Numbered from the stretch's first letter, positions 8,395 through 33,282 are shown. The stretch is DNA of 64,000 nucleotides from Gammaproteobacteria bacterium (GCA_004214065.1 SGZM01000003.1:1-64000), one strand, 5' to 3'. The notes: a model not told the origin generated them from the letters alone. Numbers and translations are program-made.

Positions 8395-9558
8395 CTATTT
8401 GTTTTTATAAATACTTGATTCAAATTCTTCTAATGTTTGAACACATCCTTTTTCTAGAAAAGGTAACATCTGCATGAGAACGACTGAAACAATTTTATTT
8501 TCTGTATCTATCCAAAAATAAGAATTAAAGAGTCCTGCCCAACCGGCACTTTCTTTCGGCCTGCCAGTCTGCGATTCTTCATGGTTTATCATGAAGCCAG
8601 GACTCCAAGATTTATCTATTCCAGGCATAATTTCCATATCTTCTGTCAAAGGAGGAGCGGAAGTTGGTAATTTATTCATTTTAATGTTCTTATCAGAACT
8701 AACTAACATAGTCTGGATTGAACTTTCTTTTAATACTTGAGAACCATTTCCTTTTCCTTTATTAAGAAATATTTTTAGAAAAGTAGAATAATCTTCTGCA
8801 TTAGAAATTAATCCGCCTCCGCCAGAATAAAAATCAAATGTTTCTGTAACACCAAAAGGTATTTCAGCAAAATTCTCTCCTGTTCTGTTATAAACTTTGG
8901 TGACTCTGTCATGATCGCTTAGAGGTAGATCATAAGAGGTATCATTCATTCCTAGAGGGTTAAAAATATTCTCTTTCATATAATCTTGAAGGCTCATATC
9001 TGAGATCTTTTCTATCAGTACACCTAACCAATCTATACCAATACCGTACTCCCAAGCAGAACCAGGATTAAACAATAATGGGGCATCCAAAAATTCCTTT
9101 TTATTGGTCATCATTGAGACAAGTTCACCTCTTCCAACTAGTTTAGTGATATTTTCATTCCACATTTCGTACCCAAAACCTGAACTATGTGAAAGGAGAT
9201 GACTTATATTGACCGCATTAGTGACTTCCGAATAAATAGGCTGATCGTTTTCATTAAAACCTTCAATAATTTTTTTTGAAGCAACTTCAGGAAAAAATTG
9301 TTTAAGTTCGGTATCTAATGATAGTTCTCCTCTCTCTATAAGTTGCATTATGCAAGTTGAGGTAACTGCTTTTGTCATTGAAGCAATTCTGAAAAGAGAG
9401 TTATCATCAACAGGTAGTTTTTTTTCAAGATCTAAATAACCAAAATGACCCTTGTACAAAGTATTTTCTTCAGAAGAAACCATGGCTGATAACCCTGGAA
9501 CTCTTGATGAGGAATCTGCAAGAGCCTGGTCAATATATTGAGAATCTATTTCGATCAT
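8395..9558 (-). CDS. Serine hydrolase of the class C beta-lactamase family (EstB-like)
   Basis: A 387-residue protein with the SxxK motif S60-M-T-K63, followed by a tyrosine motif EYGIGIDW around residue 170, as in EstB-type esterases. No signal peptide is present, so a cytoplasmic esterase is more likely than a beta-lactamase. It follows the two acyl-CoA dehydrogenase genes with a 7-base spacer and is probably the last gene of that operon, possibly hydrolysing an ester before or after oxidation. Confidence 0.85.
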   Translation of the reverse strand: MIEIDSQYIDQALADSSSRVPGLSAMVSSEENTLYKGHFGYLDLEKKLPVDDNSLFRIASMTKAVTSTCIMQLIERGELSLDTELKQFFPEVASKKIIEGFNENDQPIYSEVTNAVNISHLLSHSSGFGYEMWNENITKLVGRGELVSMMTNKKEFLDAPLLFNPGSAWEYGIGIDWLGVLIEKISDMSLQDYMKENIFNPLGMNDTSYDLPLSDHDRVTKVYNRTGENFAEIPFGVTETFDFYSGGGGLISNAEDYSTFLKIFLNKGKGNGSQVLKESSIQTMLVSSDKNIKMNKLPTSAPPLTEDMEIMPGIDKSWSPGFMINHEESQTGRPKESAGWAGLFNSYFWIDTENKIVSVVLMQMLPFLEKGCVQTLEEFESSIYKNK

Positions 9559-9565
9559 TCTAAGA

Positions 9566-10693
9566 TTAAAGGCTTGTAAATTTATCTAGGTGAAAATCTG
9601 CATTTCCAAATTGAGAATCTATAACCAATAATCTTTTGAAGAAATGTCCTATTCTAAGCTCTTCAGTCACTCCCATTCCGCCATGAAGTTGAACAGCATT
9701 TTCTCCAACGAAAATACCAGATTTACCTATCAGGTGCTTAAGGGCATGGATTGTTCTTTGGGCCATCTTAGGGTCTTGTACAGTTTCCATGGTTGCTCTA
9801 AATAACAAGGATTTGCATTGTTCATACTCCATGAACATGTCAACCATCCTGTGTTGTAAGACCTGGAAGTCCGATAATGCATGGTCAAATTGTTCTCTTT
9901 GCTGGGTATATTCAACTGTATCTTTATAGAGTACTTCCATGGCTCCAACTGCTTCAGCAGCAAGAGCTAATATTGCATCATTAGCAATAGCTTGTAGGAT
10001 CTCAAAACCTTCATCCTTTTCACTCACCATATCTTCTTTGGATACTTTTACATTCTCAAATGAAACTTCAGATGCTCTTAACCCGTCAACTGTTGGGAAG
10101 TTTTCTCTAACCACTCCATCGGCACTAGAATCTACAATAAATAGAGAAATTCCTTTCTCTTCAGTCTGACCACCGCTGGTTCTTGCTACTACAATTAATT
10201 TATTAGCAGATTCAGCATTTAGAACCATAGATTTTTTTCCATTAATGATAAATTCATTGCCTTCTTCTCTAGCCGAAGTGGCAACATCATTTAGATCAAA
10301 TCTGCTTTGTTCCTCTGCATAAGCTAATGTTATTTGCAGGCTACCATCTATTAAACCTGGAATGAGTTCTTCTTTCAGGTGTGTTGCAGGACTCCTCTTT
10401 AAAGCTCCACCACCAAGGACTATATTTGCTAAAAAAGGTTCTAATACAAGACCTTTACCAAATTGTTCCATTAACACTAAGGTATCGATTTGATTCCCTC
10501 CAAAGCCTCCTTCTTCTTCTGAAAAGGCCAGCCCCAGCCATCCAAGTTCAGCCATAGAAGACCAATAATCTTTACTGAATCCAGGATCTTCTGAGCTTAT
10601 TTTAATCCTGTTAGGTAGGTCATAATTTTCCTGTACAAAGCGTTCAACACTTTGTTGTATCATTTTTTGTTCTTCAGATAATTCAAAGTTCAT
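9566..10693 (-). CDS. Acyl-CoA dehydrogenase, second gene of a coupled pair
   Basis: A 375-residue FAD-dependent acyl-CoA dehydrogenase with the usual N-terminal helical, middle beta and C-terminal helical domains; conserved stretches include the GWLGLAFSEEEGGFGG loop near residue 51 and QLHGGMGVTEE near the C terminus. Its start overlaps the stop of the upstream dehydrogenase gene by four bases (ATGA). Such pairs form alpha2-beta2 enzymes in actinobacterial steroid side-chain degradation. A heteromeric enzyme here is inference from gene arrangement and lengths. Confidence 0.88.
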   Translation of the reverse strand: MNFELSEEQKMIQQSVERFVQENYDLPNRIKISSEDPGFSKDYWSSMAELGWLGLAFSEEEGGFGGNQIDTLVLMEQFGKGLVLEPFLANIVLGGGALKRSPATHLKEELIPGLIDGSLQITLAYAEEQSRFDLNDVATSAREEGNEFIINGKKSMVLNAESANKLIVVARTSGGQTEEKGISLFIVDSSADGVVRENFPTVDGLRASEVSFENVKVSKEDMVSEKDEGFEILQAIANDAILALAAEAVGAMEVLYKDTVEYTQQREQFDHALSDFQVLQHRMVDMFMEYEQCKSLLFRATMETVQDPKMAQRTIHALKHLIGKSGIFVGENAVQLHGGMGVTEELRIGHFFKRLLVIDSQFGNADFHLDKFTSL

Positions 10694-11862
10694 TTTGAGC
10701 TACCTTTAGTAAGACCTAGAACTTTTTTTGCAACTATATCTTTTTGAACTTCACTTGCCCCACCATAAATAGTGAAGTAACGGCTATTGAGATACCCTGC
10801 AGTTCCACCTTTAGCGAAAGATGGCCCTGCTCCTTTATCTCCCCAAGCAGATGAATATATGCCACTAGCTTCAACAGTTAATTTTTGTATACGCTGTTTT
10901 ATTTCCGTTCCTTTTAATTTTAAGATAGAAGATTCAGGTCCTGGTTCACCTCCAGCTGCAGCAGAAGCTAAGCTTCTAAGTTCAGTAAATTCTGTAGCTA
11001 GTAAATCTATTTCTAACTCTCCTACTTTAGACTTATAGCTTGAATCATCCATCAAATTTCCATTTCCTCGTTGGATTGATCGAGCATTATCTTTAAGTTG
11101 CTCTAATTCAACTAAAGATTTTGATAGTCCCGCTAACCCTGTTCTTTCATGTTCTAACAATCCTTTAGCATAAGTCCATCCTTTGCCCTCTTCGCCTATC
11201 ATATTTTCAACAGGTACTTTTACATCTGTAAAGTGGACAGTGTTAACAGTATGCGATCCTCCTAAAGTAATAATTGGTTTTACCTCTATACCTTCTTGTT
11301 TCATTGGAAAAAGTAAGAAAGTAATACCTTGTTGTTTAATTCCTGAATCATCAGTTCTGGTTAGACAAAAAATCCAGTCAGCTACATGAGCTAAGGTGGT
11401 CCATATTTTTGAACCATTTACTGTGTAGTACGTGCCATCTTCGGATAAGACTGCTTTTGTTTTTAGGTTTGCTAAATCTGAACCGGCTCCAGGTTCAGAA
11501 TATCCCTGACACCAATTCACTTTTCTATCTCTTATATCAGGTAAGAATCTTTCTTGTTGTTCTTCATTTCCATAATTCATAAGTATTGGAGCCAACATGC
11601 CCAATCCAAACGGCAGATCAAATGGAATATTTGCTTGAGCTGTTTCTTGCTCCCATATGTAGTGTTGTGTAGGAGTCCATCCAGGGCCACCAAACTTTTC
11701 TGGCCATTTGGGAACATCCCAACCACCTTTTTCTCTAGCTTTTTCAAACCAGCCTAGTCTCCAGGAAAAATAATCTTCTCCTGATTTTATTTTATTTTCA
11801 TCGAAAAAAGATCTAACTTCATCCCTAAACGCCAGATCATCACTGCTTAGATTTATATCCAT
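10690..11862 (-). CDS. Acyl-CoA dehydrogenase, first gene of a coupled pair
   Basis: A 390-residue acyl-CoA dehydrogenase. The substrate/FAD segment WCQGYSEPGAGSDLA lies near residue 118, LLEHERTGLAG near residue 234 matches the stretch of FadE26/28-type subunits, and YGGASEVQKDIVAKKVLG forms the C-terminal FAD contact. It is the first gene of a three-gene reverse operon (this gene, second dehydrogenase, serine hydrolase). The organisation suggests oxidation of an acyl-CoA with a bulky or branched chain; the substrate is not shown by sequence. Confidence 0.9.
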   Translation of the reverse strand: MDINLSSDDLAFRDEVRSFFDENKIKSGEDYFSWRLGWFEKAREKGGWDVPKWPEKFGGPGWTPTQHYIWEQETAQANIPFDLPFGLGMLAPILMNYGNEEQQERFLPDIRDRKVNWCQGYSEPGAGSDLANLKTKAVLSEDGTYYTVNGSKIWTTLAHVADWIFCLTRTDDSGIKQQGITFLLFPMKQEGIEVKPIITLGGSHTVNTVHFTDVKVPVENMIGEEGKGWTYAKGLLEHERTGLAGLSKSLVELEQLKDNARSIQRGNGNLMDDSSYKSKVGELEIDLLATEFTELRSLASAAAGGEPGPESSILKLKGTEIKQRIQKLTVEASGIYSSAWGDKGAGPSFAKGGTAGYLNSRYFTIYGGASEVQKDIVAKKVLGLTKGSSK

Positions 11863-15633: not shown

Positions 15634-16845
15634 ATGAACTTTGAGCACACACAAAAAACGAAAGAGATAATGGGCCTTGTCTCAAATTTCATTGAGAATA
15701 AGGTTAAACCAAATGAGCAAGAATATTCTAATGCCATGATATCTTTCAGGGATTCAGGAAATCCTTGGCAGGTACCGAAGGTTTTATATGAGCTAAAACA
15801 AGAAGCAAGAGAGCTAGGTTTGTGGAATTTTTCATTAACTGGAGATTTAGGCTATGGATTAACCAATTTGGAATTCGCACCATTAGCAGAAATGATGGGA
15901 GTAGGATGGACATCTGAAGTTTTTAATTCTTCAGCTCCTGATGCTGGGAATATGGAAGTGCTCGATAAATATGGCAGTGACTATCAGAAAGATAAATGGC
16001 TGACTCCTTTGCTGTCGGGTGAAATAAGGTCTGCATTTGCTATGACTGAACCAAATGTCGCGTCTTCAGATGCAACAAATATTTCAAGTACTATCAAAAA
16101 AGATGGCGATGAGTATGTCATTAATGGAGAAAAGTGGTGGACATCCGGCTACGGAAGGCCTGATTGTAAGTTTATGATTTTTATGGGGGTCTCTAATCCA
16201 GATGCTCCAAAGCATCAAAGACAATCACAAATTATCATCCCGAAAGATACTCCAGGTATCACACTCAAGCGAATGCTAACTGTTTACGGTGCAGATCATG
16301 CTCCAAATGGTCATGCACATTTAGTCTTTGATAATGTAAGAGTACCTAAAGAAAATATGATTCTAGGGGAGGGAAGGGGCTTTGAAATAGCACAAGGAAG
16401 ATTGGGGCCTGGAAGAATCCATCACTGCATGAAGATTATCGGAGCTGCGGAACTGGCTCTTGAGTTACTCTGTAAAAGAGCATCCTCACGTAAAGCTTTT
16501 GGTAAAGCTATAGCTGAACTAGGTGGTAATTATGATGTTATTGCCAAATGTAGAAATGAAATTGAGATGTGCCGACTTCTTACTTTGAAAGCTGCCTATA
16601 TGATGGACACTCTTGGCAATAAGAAGGCAAAAAGTGAAATCGCTCAACCCAAAGTAGAGGTGCCAAGTATGGCTGTTAGGGTTATTGAAAGGGCAGTGCA
16701 GATTCACGGTGGCGCCGGAGTCTCTCAAGATACACCTTTGGCAAGTCTATACAGTTCTATAAGGTATTTAAGAATTGGAGATGGGCCAGATGAAGTTCAT
16801 TTAAGAACCATAGCAAAGGAAGAGTTAAGTAAATATTCTGATTAA
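15634..16845 (+). CDS. Acyl-CoA dehydrogenase of the ACAD10/ACAD11 type
   Basis: A 403-residue acyl-CoA dehydrogenase. Distinctive stretches such as SAPDAGNMEVL near residue 106, SAFAMTEPNVASSDATN near 130, KWWTSGYGRPDCK and GRLGPGRIHHCMK match the ACAD10/11 branch rather than classical short-chain FadE proteins. In that branch (including bacterial LvaC) the enzyme works after phosphorylation of a hydroxyacyl-CoA, with phosphate elimination. An LvaA-like kinase is encoded at 30569. Pairing of the two is inference. Alone on its strand, divergent from the amidase. Confidence 0.88.
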   Translation: MNFEHTQKTKEIMGLVSNFIENKVKPNEQEYSNAMISFRDSGNPWQVPKVLYELKQEARELGLWNFSLTGDLGYGLTNLEFAPLAEMMGVGWTSEVFNSSAPDAGNMEVLDKYGSDYQKDKWLTPLLSGEIRSAFAMTEPNVASSDATNISSTIKKDGDEYVINGEKWWTSGYGRPDCKFMIFMGVSNPDAPKHQRQSQIIIPKDTPGITLKRMLTVYGADHAPNGHAHLVFDNVRVPKENMILGEGRGFEIAQGRLGPGRIHHCMKIIGAAELALELLCKRASSRKAFGKAIAELGGNYDVIAKCRNEIEMCRLLTLKAAYMMDTLGNKKAKSEIAQPKVEVPSMAVRVIERAVQIHGGAGVSQDTPLASLYSSIRYLRIGDGPDEVHLRTIAKEELSKYSD

Positions 16846-25163: not shown

Positions 25164-26255
25164 TTATTGCACTAAGTCAGTAACTTCTTTTCCCTCAATG
25201 AAATTAATCATAATTTGAGCTAATTCAGGACCAACTTCTTCTTGAACAAAATGTCCTGCTCCACCTAAAGTAATTACTGTTGGTTTTGGGATACGATTTA
25301 AAAAATCGTCTTTCATCCTAATGGTTATTCTTTCTTCCCCTCCAAAAGCCACAAGAAAAGGTTTATCCCATTTTTCATAAACCTCTTTCCAATATTTCTC
25401 ATTTTCATTGAGTTGAGTAGGTATCAAGTAAGGCCAAACATGAGCTCCGGCTTTATATTTACCGGAAGGATAGGGTGCCTCATAAGCTCTTTTTTCTCCC
25501 TCAGATAGATTTAAACCTCCAAAGGTTTCTATAATTCCTACTATGTCCATATTTTCAGAATAGTAAGAGTGCGCTATCCATTTAGTAAACATTGAAATGC
25601 CATCACTATTTGATGGACTCTCAGAATTAAGCGCTTCTTGAGCAGCAGTTTTAAGCTCTTCAAAAGTTATTGGTCCATTCCACCAAACAGTAAGTTCCAC
25701 CATACGCTGAGTTAACCATGCTCTAATACCTTCTCCTGCAACCATGCCGGTATTTGAAACAATCACTTGAGAAAATCTATCTGGCATTTCTGCAACAACT
25801 CTTAGGCCAACAAGCCCGCCCCAGTCCTGTCCAAAGTGAGTAGCATTTCTTAAATCAAGTCGTTCAACAAGTTCTTTCATTACTTCCACATGATGTCTAT
25901 AACTATAGTCGTATTTAGATTCAAATTTATCTGATTTTCCAAAGCCAACCATATCAGGCACTACCACTCTATAACCAGCTTCTGTCAAAACAGGTACCAT
26001 TTTTCTAAATAGATAACTCCAAGTAGGCTCGCCATGAAAGAGAATTATAGGGTCTGCATTTCTTGGACCTTCATCAAGATAGTGGATTCTAAGACCATCA
26101 ATCATCATATAGTTAGGTTTAAAAGGATAGTTTTCTAGATTTTCAAACCTATCATCAGGCGTTCTAAGAACACCTTCTTTCACTTCATTAGAAAAGGAAA
26201 GGATACTGAAGAAAGAAATAGTTAAGAAAGTTAAGATCTTTATTTTATTGGTCAT
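25164..26255 (-). CDS. Exported haloalkane dehalogenase-like alpha/beta hydrolase (DhlA/HLD-I type)
   Basis: A 363-residue protein with a signal peptide (residues 1-22) and then strong similarity to DhlA-type dehalogenases: RTPDDRFENLENYPF, HGEPTWSYLFRKM (oxyanion hole and halide-side residues, 74-86), FGQDWGG with nucleophile D144 and halide-binding W145, and GAGHFVQEE with the catalytic histidine. The second halide-binding tryptophan of the cap domain could not be assigned by eye, so epoxide hydrolase activity is an alternative. Known DhlA is cytoplasmic; the export signal is unusual. Confidence 0.85.
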   Translation of the reverse strand: MTNKIKILTFLTISFFSILSFSNEVKEGVLRTPDDRFENLENYPFKPNYMMIDGLRIHYLDEGPRNADPIILFHGEPTWSYLFRKMVPVLTEAGYRVVVPDMVGFGKSDKFESKYDYSYRHHVEVMKELVERLDLRNATHFGQDWGGLVGLRVVAEMPDRFSQVIVSNTGMVAGEGIRAWLTQRMVELTVWWNGPITFEELKTAAQEALNSESPSNSDGISMFTKWIAHSYYSENMDIVGIIETFGGLNLSEGEKRAYEAPYPSGKYKAGAHVWPYLIPTQLNENEKYWKEVYEKWDKPFLVAFGGEERITIRMKDDFLNRIPKPTVITLGGAGHFVQEEVGPELAQIMINFIEGKEVTDLVQ

Positions 26256-27747: not shown

Positions 27748-28230
27748 ATGACAATACAAGTTGGTGATACTTTACCTTCAATAAACCTTACTACTATGAC
27801 TGATGAGGGTCCAAAACCCGTTTCTATGGCTGAGATTTCTTCGGGAAAGAAAGTAGTATTATTTGCTGTTCCTGGTGCTTTTACCCCTACATGCAGTGTT
27901 CAGCATCTACCTGGATTTCTAGAAAAAAATAGTGATTTAAAAGAAAAAGGCGTTGATGTTATTGCGTGTGTATCAGTGAATGACCCATTTGTTATGAAGG
28001 CTTGGGGTGAAGATAGAAGTGTTGGAGATGATGTAATGATGTTATCGGATGGAAACGGCGAGTTTACGGCTGCTATAGGCTTAGAGATGGATGGCAGTGG
28101 ATTCGGTCTTGGCACTAGGTCTCAAAGATATGCAATGATTATTGATGATGGTGTTGTTTCAGCATTAAATGTTGAACCTGGTCCTGGTCTAGATGTCAGC
28201 TCAGCTGAGACAATACTGGGGCTGCTGTAA
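27748..28230 (+). CDS. Prx5-type peroxiredoxin
   Basis: A 160-residue thiol peroxidase with the Prx5 motif PGAFTPTCS (peroxidatic Cys near residue 50) and a second cysteine in VIACVSVNDPF near 75 typical of the AhpE/Prx5 glutaredoxin-dependent group. It reduces hydrogen peroxide and lipid peroxides. First gene of an operon: its stop lies four bases before the P450 start, suggesting that it protects against peroxide made by the P450 or acts on oxidised lipid products. Confidence 0.92.
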   Translation: MTIQVGDTLPSINLTTMTDEGPKPVSMAEISSGKKVVLFAVPGAFTPTCSVQHLPGFLEKNSDLKEKGVDVIACVSVNDPFVMKAWGEDRSVGDDVMMLSDGNGEFTAAIGLEMDGSGFGLGTRSQRYAMIIDDGVVSALNVEPGPGLDVSSAETILGLL

Positions 28231-28234
28231 AAAA

Positions 28235-29473
28235 ATGCCAAAGCCCATTTATGATATCGGTCAGATTTGTGAACTTGATAAATGGGAGACTTTTATCAAT
28301 GGTCAGCCTTTTGATATTTTTAAAAGACTTCGTGAGGAAGCCCCAATCTATTGGCACGAAGAAAGTTTAGATTTTGAGCCTGGTTTTTGGGCCTTAACTA
28401 AGCATGAAGATATCGTAAGGGTCTCTAAAGATCCCATGACTTTTTCTTCTGCTGTCGGAGGTCATTTGATGTCAATGGGTGATCCTGAAGTTGTAGATCC
28501 TTCTGCTGTAGCAGCGATTATAGGAAATATGATTGGTATGGATCCGCCTGATCATCAGGTTTATAGAAAAATGGTAGCTCCAAGCTTTACTCCAAAGGCC
28601 ATTAGAAGCTTAGAAATAGATATGAGAGCTAAAGTGAGAGAACTTCTTGAAAATGTAGAAGGCAAAGGAGAGTTCAACTTCGTTACAGAAATAGCAGAGC
28701 AATTACCTTTATGGGTACTCTGCGAAATGATGGGTATTCCGGAATCTGAAAGACCTAAAATAAGAGATTTAGTTAATAACCTCACTGATGCATCCATACA
28801 ACAAGACCCTAACAACTCTTTCCAAATATGGGTCAATTATATGGAACTATTCAAGATGGGTAGAGACATGATTGAAGAGAGAAGAAAAAACCCAACTGAT
28901 GATCTTATGAGTGTGGTTGCTAATACTAAAATAGAAGGTTCAGAACTTCCTCCAGAGCTGCTTGATGGTTTTTTTCTTCTAATGGTAATTGCGGGAAATG
29001 AAACTACAAGAAACACACTAACAGGAGGGCTCATGGCTTTAACTGAGAACCCTGAAGAAAGAGAGAAACTTTTGAATGAACCTTCGTTAATTTCCAATGC
29101 TACTGATGAAATGTTGAGATGGGTCACTTCCGTGATCTACTTTAGAAGAACTGCAACTAAAGATACAAAAATTAGAGGTCAGAATATTAAAGCAGGGGAT
29201 AAGGTTGTCATGTGGTATGGTTCTGCGAATCGAGATGAAGATGTATTTACTGATGGTCACTTATTTAGAGTAGAAAGAGAGAACGCAAAGAAGCATCTGG
29301 CATTTGGGGCTGGTGAGCATCTTTGCTTAGGGAATAGGTTGGGACATATGCAGATTAGGGTATTGTTTGAAGAGCTTTTGTCTCGTTATCCTAATATTCA
29401 TTATGTAGCAGAGCCAACCAGGATACCTTCGAATTTCTTAGCCGGGATTTCTGAGTTAAAAGTAAATTTATAA
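28235..29473 (+). CDS. Cytochrome P450, CYP125-like
   Basis: A 412-residue soluble bacterial P450. Oxygen-binding helix I motif AGNETTRN (about 253-260), ExxR in EMLRW (about 292-296), and heme loop FGAGEHLCLG with axial cysteine near 364. The I-helix and the stretch KAGDKVVMWYGSANRDEDVF strongly resemble CYP125/CYP142-type sterol side-chain hydroxylases; the substrate is inference. I chose the ATG at 28235 because the longer frame overlaps the peroxiredoxin gene. No ferredoxin or reductase gene is near. Confidence 0.92.
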   Translation: MPKPIYDIGQICELDKWETFINGQPFDIFKRLREEAPIYWHEESLDFEPGFWALTKHEDIVRVSKDPMTFSSAVGGHLMSMGDPEVVDPSAVAAIIGNMIGMDPPDHQVYRKMVAPSFTPKAIRSLEIDMRAKVRELLENVEGKGEFNFVTEIAEQLPLWVLCEMMGIPESERPKIRDLVNNLTDASIQQDPNNSFQIWVNYMELFKMGRDMIEERRKNPTDDLMSVVANTKIEGSELPPELLDGFFLLMVIAGNETTRNTLTGGLMALTENPEEREKLLNEPSLISNATDEMLRWVTSVIYFRRTATKDTKIRGQNIKAGDKVVMWYGSANRDEDVFTDGHLFRVERENAKKHLAFGAGEHLCLGNRLGHMQIRVLFEELLSRYPNIHYVAEPTRIPSNFLAGISELKVNL

Positions 29474-29475
29474 AA

Positions 29476-30576
29476 ATGATCTCTCAAGGCGACGATTTCC
29501 CCATTCATCAACTACCCACACCAGTTGCCGAAGTCGGCACAGAGAGAAATTTTTACGATCGTTACTTTTTCAATGGCTACAACGAAGATGGAAGTATATT
29601 CTTCGGAGCCGCATTCTGTGTTTATCCTAATTTGAATATAAAAGATGGGAGTTTTATTTTAGTCCTCAATGGTGTTCAACATAATTTTAGATATTCTGAT
29701 GTTCTTAATCACGAACGAATGGAAACAGGTGTTGGCTGTTTAAAGATAGAAATAATTCAACCCTTAAAAAAGCTCAGAATTATTGTTGAGGACAACGAGA
29801 AAGACATTTCTGTTGATATTTCTTTCACTGGACGCTTTGAGCCAATGGAAGAACCAAGAATGACTTTAAAAAATGGCCCCAGGATCTACATGGACTCCAC
29901 ACGCATGACTCAACACGGAAACTGGATTGGAAATATAAAGTTTAAGGATGTGGCTATCGACCTTTCTCAAGATAATTATTTAGGTACTCGTGATAGATCA
30001 TGGGGTATAAGGCCTGTTGGTGCTCAAGATACTCAGATTGTGCCTCCGTTGAAATTACCGCAATTTTATTGGTTATGGGCTCCAGCTAATTTCCTTGATC
30101 AATCTTCACATTTATATTTTGTGGATGATGAGTCAGGTTACGCAACTCATAGCCACTGTGTTCAGCAAGGAACTGATCATAGCGTTAAGTTACACGAATT
30201 AAAAAAAGAAATAGAATACAAAAAGGGTTCAAGACGAATAACAAAGGCTAAATTCTTTGCCGTGAAAGAGGATGGCACAAAAGTATCTTGGTCCCTAACT
30301 CCAAAATATCATATTTACATGTGTGGACTGGGATATATGCATCCTGAATGGGGTCATGGTCAGTTTCATGGAGAGAATCAATCTCTTTACGACTTTTATG
30401 ATTTAAAGGAAGATCCTCACGATCCCCCTTTTCTTCACATACAGGCTATTTGTGATTTCGAAATGAAAGAACATGGCTCATCTAAAAAAGGAATAGGCGC
30501 TTTAGAGCAACTATTAATAGGTCCACATCATACTAGTGGTTTTGAGGCGTTATTAGACGGACAGGCTGATGTCTGA
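29476..30576 (+). CDS. Conserved-looking protein of unknown function in a P450-kinase operon (366 aa)
   Basis: A soluble protein without signal peptide. It is beta-rich throughout, with a striking motif GTRDRSWGIRPVG at about residues 170-182 and several His/Trp-rich segments (LPQFYWLWAPANF, HSHCVQQG, GYMHPEWGHGQFHG), resembling calycin- or lipocalin-like enzymes that bind hydrophobic substrates; I cannot name the family with certainty. Two bases separate it from the P450 and its end overlaps the kinase by eight bases, so a role in the same pathway is likely. Confidence 0.8.
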   Translation: MISQGDDFPIHQLPTPVAEVGTERNFYDRYFFNGYNEDGSIFFGAAFCVYPNLNIKDGSFILVLNGVQHNFRYSDVLNHERMETGVGCLKIEIIQPLKKLRIIVEDNEKDISVDISFTGRFEPMEEPRMTLKNGPRIYMDSTRMTQHGNWIGNIKFKDVAIDLSQDNYLGTRDRSWGIRPVGAQDTQIVPPLKLPQFYWLWAPANFLDQSSHLYFVDDESGYATHSHCVQQGTDHSVKLHELKKEIEYKKGSRRITKAKFFAVKEDGTKVSWSLTPKYHIYMCGLGYMHPEWGHGQFHGENQSLYDFYDLKEDPHDPPFLHIQAICDFEMKEHGSSKKGIGALEQLLIGPHHTSGFEALLDGQADV

Positions 30577-31573
30577 AGAACTCTCCTCTTTGTTTCTTAA
30601 TTATTATTCCAATTTTACAAATAAAGAATTTTCGCTAGTTAATTTAGAAAGAATTTTTGGAGGAGCAAGCCGAGAAACTTATAGAATAAAAGTTAAGGAT
30701 AATTCCGATAATGAAGAAAAGTTAATACTGAGACTCTCTCAAGACAGCTCTTTGATAGAGACTGAACAGAGAACTGAGTACTTAGCTTATTCTGCTTTTC
30801 AGGATTCAAAGGTTCCAGTCCCAATTCTGATTGACATGTCTGAAGATAATACTCAATTAGGTGCCTCATTTATGTTGATGAGGGAGCTAGAAGGAGAGGC
30901 TGCCAGCCCTTTTACTCCAAATATTTATTCACCCTATGAGGAAGATTTAGGAAATCAGTTTTGGTCAATCTTGGGAGAGATAGCAAAAAAAGAAATAGAT
31001 TCTGAAATCTTTAAAATCTTTTCTAAAGATTTTAAGCAACCTTGCTGGAAAAATGAATTAGATAAATGGGTTAAGGTGATACATGAAGACTCTATAGGAG
31101 TAGAGCCCATCCTAGAGTCAGGTATAAGATATTTATATCGAAACCCACCTAATGAAAATAAAAGAATAAGTATGGTGCATGGAGATTATAGAAGTGGAAA
31201 CTTCTTGTACTTGAAGGAAAAAGTTACAGGAGTTTTGGATTGGGAGATGGCTCATTTAGGAGATCCTCTTGAAGATTTAGGTTGGGCACTATCACCAATT
31301 TGGAGCTGGCAAGACAAAGAACGTCCTGCATACTTAATAAAGAGAGATGAGGCTATCAGAGTATGGAAAACATCAAGTGAAATTGATCTTGATGAAAAAG
31401 ATTTAGAGTGGTGGGAACTATTTGCTGCTGTAAAAGGGATGGCAATTTGGATTTCAGCAGGAAACGAATTTAAATCAGGTAAGAATATAGATCCAATAAA
31501 TTTATTTTCTGCATGGATACCTGGAGATATTCATTTAGAAGTTATTTTAGATATTTTAGAAAGTAATATATGA
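30569..31573 (+). CDS. APH-fold kinase resembling LvaA/ACAD10-11 hydroxyacyl-CoA kinases
   Basis: A 334-residue aminoglycoside-phosphotransferase-fold kinase. ATP loop GGASRETYRI near residues 31-40, catalytic loop HGDYRSGN at 204-211 and metal-binding LDWEMAHLGDP at 223-233. This set, notably GDYRSGN and DWEMAHLGDP, is that of the ACAD10/11-N and LvaA kinases that phosphorylate 4-hydroxyacyl-CoA, not drug-resistance enzymes. Coupled to the genes before and after by overlaps of 8 and 4 bases. Substrate not proven. Confidence 0.85.
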   Translation: MSEELSSLFLNYYSNFTNKEFSLVNLERIFGGASRETYRIKVKDNSDNEEKLILRLSQDSSLIETEQRTEYLAYSAFQDSKVPVPILIDMSEDNTQLGASFMLMRELEGEAASPFTPNIYSPYEEDLGNQFWSILGEIAKKEIDSEIFKIFSKDFKQPCWKNELDKWVKVIHEDSIGVEPILESGIRYLYRNPPNENKRISMVHGDYRSGNFLYLKEKVTGVLDWEMAHLGDPLEDLGWALSPIWSWQDKERPAYLIKRDEAIRVWKTSSEIDLDEKDLEWWELFAAVKGMAIWISAGNEFKSGKNIDPINLFSAWIPGDIHLEVILDILESNI

Positions 31574-32010
31574 AACCCGATATAAATATAGCTCTTCTTA
31601 ATGCTGCCCAAGAAATCATAAATAGATTTAGTCCCCTTATCGATGATGAATATGAGAAATCTCGTTTAGGTTCTTGGGGTGCTCTTATATTAATTTCAGC
31701 AATGAAGTTTAATGATGCGTCTTCATCATTACAAAAAGAGAATATAGAAATAATAGATTGGCTTTTGGTAAATTCTAGATTGAATGATAAAGATATTGAG
31801 AGTTATAGACCTTCAAACACTGAAAAAGGTATTGACCAATTAGACCAAGAAAATCAGGCATTAAGAGCTTTGTTAGATAAGGAAGTAGAGTACTTTGAGG
31901 AGAGGGGAGATAATAATTTACTAGAGAGTGTCTTTTGTTTATTTAGGTCAATGCATCATAGACGTAAGATTAGTGACCTTATAGGTTTATTGCAGCAGCC
32001 TGAATCTTAA
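31570..32010 (+). CDS. Small helical protein coupled to the kinase, LvaB-like by position
   Basis: A 146-residue, mostly alpha-helical, acidic protein with no signal peptide. The motif SRLGSWGALILISAMKF near residues 35-51 and KGIDQLDQENQALRALLDKEVEYF near 80-103 are notable. In levulinate-type catabolic operons a small protein (LvaB) directly follows and binds the kinase LvaA; position and length suggest a similar role, but sequence relationship is not established by me. Starts inside the kinase stop region (4-base overlap). Confidence 0.65.
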   Translation: MKPDINIALLNAAQEIINRFSPLIDDEYEKSRLGSWGALILISAMKFNDASSSLQKENIEIIDWLLVNSRLNDKDIESYRPSNTEKGIDQLDQENQALRALLDKEVEYFEERGDNNLLESVFCLFRSMHHRRKISDLIGLLQQPES

Positions 32011-32229: not shown

Positions 32230-33282
32230 TTATTTTGCGTTTGAAATAAAAAATTCTACTATAGCTATGCCATTTTCACCTCTAATTGAATATAACAAAT
32301 AGTTCTTATCATCTTCAATAAAGATTGCAGGATCTCTCAATTGATTAGCAGGAATATTAATGGCACTAGCTACAGACTTATATAAAGGCAGAGAAGCACC
32401 TTCCCATTCTTTTTCAGGCTTTAGAACTTCTAATGACTTTGAGGTTTCCCATGAAGATGAAGGTAAAGTAAGGTCTATAGTTGTAAGTAAAATACGTTCA
32501 GGCTTATCCCCCTTTCTAGTGTAAAAAATAAGTAGTTTATCGTCATGTACCATTACTGCACTATGTCTAGTGTCTTCATCCATGATTTGATTCACTATAG
32601 TAAAATCTTCTAGATCTCCAGAATTCTTGTAAATAACACCAGGCATTGAAATGGCGTAGTCCACGCCTTTATAGGAAAATTTTCTAAAGTAAGGCCATCC
32701 AACTATTTTTTTTCTAGCTAAAAAATTAATACCATCATTTGATACAGCTACTCTAGTTTTTTGAAGACCAAATTCATCAAGCCCATGATAGTACATGACA
32801 ATTCTTTGATTAATTTCATCTACATGAACATCAGGAGAAGCAATATGTGGATAAGTCAGATCATCTATCTTTTTAGGTATATGGTCAATATGATCTTTAT
32901 GGGCATCTCTATCTCCAAGTTCATTTACATTAAAATCGTCAGGTATCTCAGGTCTTTGAGTTAAAAAATGCGAATCCTTAAGTTGTAACGTACCTCCAGT
33001 ATATATTTTCCAGGGACCCTTAAGGTTTTCTGCAAATGCTAGTTTTATTCTATCTCCCTTGTGGTCTGCAAAGTATAAGTAGTATTTTCCAAGTGGACTT
33101 TTAATCCAAGCAGGAGCTTTGATTAGAGATGGGCCATTGATATTAGATCCAATCTCCTCTTCCAGAAAAGGAGGTATTATTGGCTCGTCTATAAAACGAG
33201 ATATTTTTATTTTCACTTCAGTCTCTTTTGCATTGCAACTCAATAGTAATCCCAAGATTAATGATATGAAATAATTCTTCAT
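32230..33282 (-). CDS. GH43-like beta-propeller lipoprotein, putative glycosidase
   Basis: A 350-residue lipoprotein: lipobox LLSC at residues 13-16. The mature part has repeated segments of the type YYLYFADHKGDRIKLAFAEN, VHVDEINQRIVMYYHG and AVSNDGINFL typical of five-bladed beta-propeller glycosidases (GH43/GH32/GH117 group). Candidate acidic residues are in SPDVHVDE and LRDPAIF, but the catalytic triad is not certain. An exported, surface-linked enzyme for polysaccharide or sugar conjugates is likely. No polysaccharide-utilisation partners are adjacent. Confidence 0.7.
   Translation of the reverse strand: MKNYFISLILGLLLSCNAKETEVKIKISRFIDEPIIPPFLEEEIGSNINGPSLIKAPAWIKSPLGKYYLYFADHKGDRIKLAFAENLKGPWKIYTGGTLQLKDSHFLTQRPEIPDDFNVNELGDRDAHKDHIDHIPKKIDDLTYPHIASPDVHVDEINQRIVMYYHGLDEFGLQKTRVAVSNDGINFLARKKIVGWPYFRKFSYKGVDYAISMPGVIYKNSGDLEDFTIVNQIMDEDTRHSAVMVHDDKLLIFYTRKGDKPERILLTTIDLTLPSSSWETSKSLEVLKPEKEWEGASLPLYKSVASAINIPANQLRDPAIFIEDDKNYLLYSIRGENGIAIVEFFISNAK

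Follow-up and report, generated by a model that had tools for sequence, protein, structure and literature searches.

A reaction sequence of hydroxylation, phosphorylation by a kinase and elimination by a lyase has precedent on the sterol side chain (PMC8449060, PMC11061730), the known kinase substrates being steroids with a tertiary alcohol at C25. In Sterolibacterium denitrificans, the hydroxylation is performed independently of O2 by the molybdenum enzyme S25DH, the alcohol is phosphorylated by 25-HSK (SDENChol_21286), and 25-phosphosteroid lyase (25-PSL) subsequently eliminates the phosphate to yield an alkene; no lyase candidate was found near the kinase gene there in the 2021 paper. An APH kinase adjoining an Rv3169-family protein is encoded in Mycobacterium tuberculosis as well, where Rv3168-Rv3169 constitute one operon with the TetR-type regulator Rv3167c, for which neither a small partner nor a cytochrome P450 (P450) is described in the available part of the source (PMC5340868). 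A kinase with a small helper, followed by phosphate elimination, is represented by LvaA/LvaB/LvaC of Pseudomonas putida and by ACAD10/ACAD11; for LvaB (12 kDa), interaction and joint action with LvaA have been reported (PMC6692424). Here, we describe an operon within a 64,000-nucleotide stretch of a gammaproteobacterial genome (SGZM01000003.1, positions 1-64000; the window in the following), which we consider, at a probability of roughly 0.6, to encode a P450-fed pathway that dehydrates a hydrophobic alcohol, probably one resembling an isoprenoid or a sterol, at the expense of ATP. The genome (1.13 Mb, 73% complete) belongs to the SAR86 cluster, as do the nearest named loci.

The preliminary description of this stretch had recorded four tightly coupled genes, and four consecutive open reading frames (ORFs) on the plus strand were indeed found at 28235-32010, with a 2-base spacer between the P450 and lyase genes, an 8-base overlap between the lyase and kinase genes and a 4-base overlap between the kinase gene and that of a small protein. 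A gene for a peroxiredoxin at 27748-28230 had been overlooked; 4 bases separate it from the P450 start, and it extends the set to a five-gene unit:

27748..28230, plus strand: peroxiredoxin of the Redoxin family (Pfam Redoxin, 140 bits), heading the SAR86 operon
28235..29473, plus strand: P450 of the CYP125/CYP126/CYP124/CYP153 neighborhood (Pfam p450, 101 bits; PDB CYP125MRCA, E 3.5e-99)
29476..30576, plus strand: putative phospho-lyase of the Rv3169/25-phosphosteroid lyase family, 366 aa (NF053593, 347.6 bits)
30569..31573, plus strand: APH-fold small-molecule kinase (Pfam APH, 95 bits)
31570..32010, plus strand: helical candidate kinase partner of a new family, 146 aa (kinase linkage; four-helix bundle model)

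The 366-aa protein, previously labeled as unknown, can be assigned to the Rv3169 family and as a 25-PSL homologue. Its score against NCBIfam NF053593 is far above the cut-off of 150 bits, and 25-PSL entries (9fzn, 9g2i, 9g4c) are its only significant sequence relatives in the PDB (E 3.6e-44; profile E 4.4e-74), the homology extending over the full length. Comparison of its AlphaFold model (predicted local distance difference test, pLDDT, 91.9) by Foldseek and VIA led to the same enzyme (Foldseek E 2.4e-30; VIA Z 41.2, root-mean-square deviation 2.2 over 333 residues, 29% identity). The entry 9g4c is a complex with phosphate and desmost-1,4-diene-3-one, and its RDRSWG motif carries Asn at the position occupied by Asp in 9fzn. 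The equivalent Asp, D173 in the window lyase (GTRDRSWG), is invariant across a 29-row alignment and, because of the Asp-to-Asn change in 9g4c, is likely the catalytic residue. A second tier of folds comprises kievitone hydratase, AttH and the pericyclases CghA/Fsa2/Phm7 (VIA Z 22-24), which would be in line with this AttH/CrtC-like two-barrel protein catalyzing a hydration, isomerization or cyclization in biosynthesis instead of a phosphate elimination. The far stronger match to 25-PSL, the conserved D173 motif and the adjacent kinase render such a role highly unlikely. Most likely, the 366-aa protein is the eliminating enzyme, and since it is encoded inside the operon, the acyl-CoA dehydrogenase (ACAD) gene at 15634 would not be needed for this step.

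The latter gene had been given the eliminating role in the preliminary description, in which an LvaA/LvaB-type pair makes a 4-phosphoacyl-CoA and an ACAD10/11-type enzyme removes the phosphate. Its product is indeed ACAD11-like (E 1.5e-121); the gene lies ~11 kb upstream of the operon, and a 79% identical copy is found near the operon in one further locus (L109), most other loci being too short to show it. The kinase also speaks in part for this version. Its catalytic residues (H204, D206, N211, and D224) are invariant, and a profile search against the PDB ranked 3dxp (LvaA/ACAD-like kinase) first, followed by 9o56, ACAD11, and 3ats, the structure of Rv3168 (75 bits, by profile only), with 9fsg, possibly 25-HSK, in sixth place (66 bits). 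An antibiotic kinase followed far behind the LvaA/ACAD11/Rv3168-type structures; an antibiotic-resistance kinase was rejected, as models of APH(3') and macrolide kinases scored far below their cut-offs. In a tree of 57 rows, from which 25-HSK was left out, however, kinases with the small protein encoded downstream grouped in one clade (100/99) and those adjacent to DUF6285 proteins another (100/99), with other kinases branching nearby. The window kinase is thus LvaA-like in respect to its profile matches, but stands outside the DUF6285/LvaA clade: it belongs to the part of the APH superfamily that holds LvaA, ACAD11, Rv3168 and 25-HSK, in a clade of its own.

The small protein bears on the same question. 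Neither it nor any of its 32 relatives matched anything above chance in Pfam and NCBIfam scans, including PF19802 (DUF6285), which real DUF6285 proteins match well, and a PDB sequence search with its profile returned coiled-coil-type noise only. Its predicted structure is a four-helix bundle (pLDDT 90.3) with no Foldseek match at E < 0.001 and a best VIA Z of 6.7, a value that helical bundles may reach through a common arrangement alone. Weak similarity to DUF6285 was detected by hhalign (E 0.0014, probability 17%) and by the DUF6285 hidden Markov model on one member (E 0.0038), so that on profile similarity a remote relation is possible, and the protein may at most be a remote relative of LvaB. 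Its linkage to the kinase is tight: among 37 named loci with a kinase of this clade, 36 have the small protein downstream, and in the last one the contig ends too early to show it; no locus of this set contained the small protein without such a kinase. A role as kinase partner is suggested by analogy, because LvaB is reported to work with LvaA (PMC6692424). Of the LvaB-like partner proposed before, the association with the kinase stands, while a DUF6285 match is lacking, and we regard the 146-aa protein as a new four-helix-bundle family of putative kinase partners. DUF6285 was not mentioned by name in the literature searched.

Taken with the phospho-lyase of the operon itself and the separation of the kinase clades, the missing Pfam match leaves little probability for an LvaABC-type route at this locus. 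In place of the acyl-CoA dehydrogenase of LvaABC, the SAR86 set holds a two-barrel phospho-lyase, its small partner is a different or very remote one, and chemistry on coenzyme A thioesters is not indicated, the broad kinase superfamily being shared. Furthermore, a separate operon in the same genome (G000:C2, L192:3635-7932) encodes a ketoacyl synthase, an ACAD, an LvaA-clade kinase and a true DUF6285 protein; chemistry of the 4-hydroxyacyl-CoA type likely resides there. Another arrangement was observed in a Desulfobacteraceae locus (L135:1893-4309) and in a metagenome-assembled genome (MAG) of Deltaproteobacteria (L147:398-2412), where an LvaA-clade kinase gene overlaps by 4 bases that of a 343-aa DUF7064/DUF7065 protein very distantly related to the lyase, possibly forming another kinase-lyase module; in L135, the kinase gene is flanked on its opposite side by one for a true DUF6285 protein.

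The order peroxiredoxin, P450, lyase, kinase and small protein, all in the same orientation, was recovered in essentially all examined loci of one SAR86 family (f1). This conservation, on which the preliminary description had made its proposal depend, shows that the grouping of the genes is not due to chance. The P450-lyase spacer measures 0-10 bases in these loci and the kinase/small-protein overlap mostly 4 bases; the 8-base lyase/kinase overlap is peculiar to the stop position in the window genome, most SAR86 relatives having a short positive spacer. Identity to L100, one of the closest named relatives, decreases from 93% for the P450 through 81% (lyase) and 79% (kinase) to 65% for the small protein. 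Nearly every genome of this family carries the operon, and the small protein was found in 32 of its 35 genomes. Among 397 genomes of Pseudomonadota, 24 contain the lyase family and seven the small protein, all seven within those 24 (P ~1e-9 under random assortment, relatedness ignored); six strong small-protein matches in this set sit at the lyase-kinase locus. An APH kinase adjoins the lyase in 65 of 80 named lyase loci, and no peroxiredoxin was seen in the cassette outside the SAR86 loci.

Other SAR86 families (L080-L088, L111, and L114-L118) encode the lyase together with a distant APH kinase (~25% identical) and without P450 or small partner; in two of these loci (L082 and L084), no recognized kinase adjoins the lyase, and in the SAR86 genome G039 the lyase is split over two ORFs (L088:7339-8437), likely by a frameshift. 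Recurrent neighbors in alphaproteobacterial loci are an MFS_1_like transporter, alpha/beta hydrolases and a small membrane protein, which provide no clue to the substrate and may reflect shared ancestry.

The P450 is CYP125-like in its structural matches: its closest solved structures are CYP125MRCA followed by CYP126, CYP153, and CYP124, and the I-helix (AGNETTRN) and heme (FGAGEHLCLG) motifs are present. CYP125 and CYP124 are hydroxylases of sterols and methyl-branched lipids, usually attacking terminal methyls. From these and CYP126 the window P450 differs in being encoded beside a kinase and a phospho-lyase. Within the searched genomes of the genus of the window, it is among one or two P450s in all.

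In the scheme that we propose, the P450 would first hydroxylate an unactivated, probably tertiary, carbon, a first step inferred from the co-location of the genes and the known order in S. denitrificans; the alcohol may originate from the P450 or from the environment. The kinase, together with the 146-aa helical partner, would then phosphorylate the presumed tertiary (or secondary) hydroxyl group at the expense of ATP. Subsequently, the 366-aa protein, matching 25-PSL in family, fold and key residue, would expel the phosphate to leave an alkene, which would pass to further oxidation. This cascade resembles the anaerobic sequence of 25-hydroxylase, 25-HSK and 25-PSL, with the P450 in place of the O2-independent molybdenum hydroxylase, the kinase being likened to 25-HSK by its role and not by orthology. 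In contrast to S. denitrificans, the SAR86 genes form one operon, P450 and small kinase partner are included, and the host is an upper-ocean bacterium. As a scheme, the hydroxylate-phosphorylate-eliminate logic put forward earlier is supported. Its novelty is confined to the operonic, P450-associated version with a dedicated small partner, as kinase and lyase steps have been described in S. denitrificans already (PMC8449060, PMC11061730).

A different order of events has to be weighed, in which kinase, partner and lyase use an imported tertiary alcohol (an oxysterol or a terpene alcohol), with the P450 hydroxylating the allylic methyl of the alkene later on or serving a separate step. Terminal methyls being the usual target of CYP125/124-type enzymes would favor a late P450 step, and most lyase-kinase-partner loci outside SAR86 are without a neighboring P450, pointing to a late or separate one. 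In S. denitrificans, the lyase is followed by a second hydroxylase, which attacks the allylic C26 (PMC11061730). On the other hand, the SAR86 gene order begins with the P450, although reactions need not follow the order of the genes, and the alkene would be superfluous to an aerobe that can attack terminal methyls by direct oxidation. We regard this order as the less probable one, unlikely but to be taken seriously.

Several observations weigh against the P450-fed dehydration of an isoprenoid- or sterol-like alcohol proposed here. A P450 belongs to the operon in the f1 loci and flanks the lyase-kinase-partner set in 4 of 31 non-SAR86 loci (Parvibaculum sedimenti, one Sphingomonadales MAG, and a pair of genomes from another genus; about 32-35% identity to the window P450), which speaks for a P450 feed, but it is absent beside the set in the remaining 27 and in other SAR86 families, so that it can be considered as a frequent feed at most and not as indispensable. 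Against 9fsg, the kinase has a lower score than against the LvaA-like, ACAD11 and Rv3168 structures, and consequently the substrate of 25-HSK cannot be carried over. Moreover, no convincing HsaC-like ring-cleavage dioxygenase was found in the genus of the window (marginal matches or none), including a 95% complete genome. This disfavors full steroid breakdown and weakly favors a side-chain or isoprenoid conversion in this genus. Steroid pathways are reported in other SAR86 genomes (PMC4810484), and a genome from another genus of the same family (G024) contains approximately ten P450s and two HsaC-like proteins.

Elsewhere in the window, an ACAD pair resembling the large and small subunits of pimeloyl-CoA dehydrogenase (below cut-off) adjoins an AcmB-like (methyl acetate hydrolase) protein at 8395-11862, and a haloalkane dehalogenase subfamily protein that exceeds the cut-off of its family and apparently carries a signal peptide is encoded at 25164-26255. 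The gene at 32230-33282, whose 350-aa product has a lipoprotein-like N-terminus and matched nothing in Pfam and NCBIfam, is conserved 3' of the operon across many SAR86 loci.

In its broadest form, our proposal is a tentative one, with odds slightly short of even: SAR86 and some alphaproteobacteria would possess an aerobic route of P450, tertiary-alcohol kinase and phospho-lyase by which alkenes are made from branched chains, isoprenoid or sterol-like, and the kinase of which would need a so far unrecognized family of helical subunits paralleling LvaB. A protein annotated as unknown thereby gains a testable function, a new family of candidate kinase partners is defined, and for the uncharacterized mycobacterial Rv3168-Rv3169 pair a hypothesis emerges, namely that of an alcohol kinase and a phospho-lyase. 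With P. sedimenti HXT-9 (L127), a cultured relative encoding P450, lyase, kinase and partner makes the proposal testable. SAR86 bacteria, with their very small genomes, are among the most abundant uncultured bacteria of the ocean; if the proposal is true, the dehydration of alcohols by means of ATP would extend from anaerobic cholesterol degradation, where it has been described, to aerobic marine lipid turnover.

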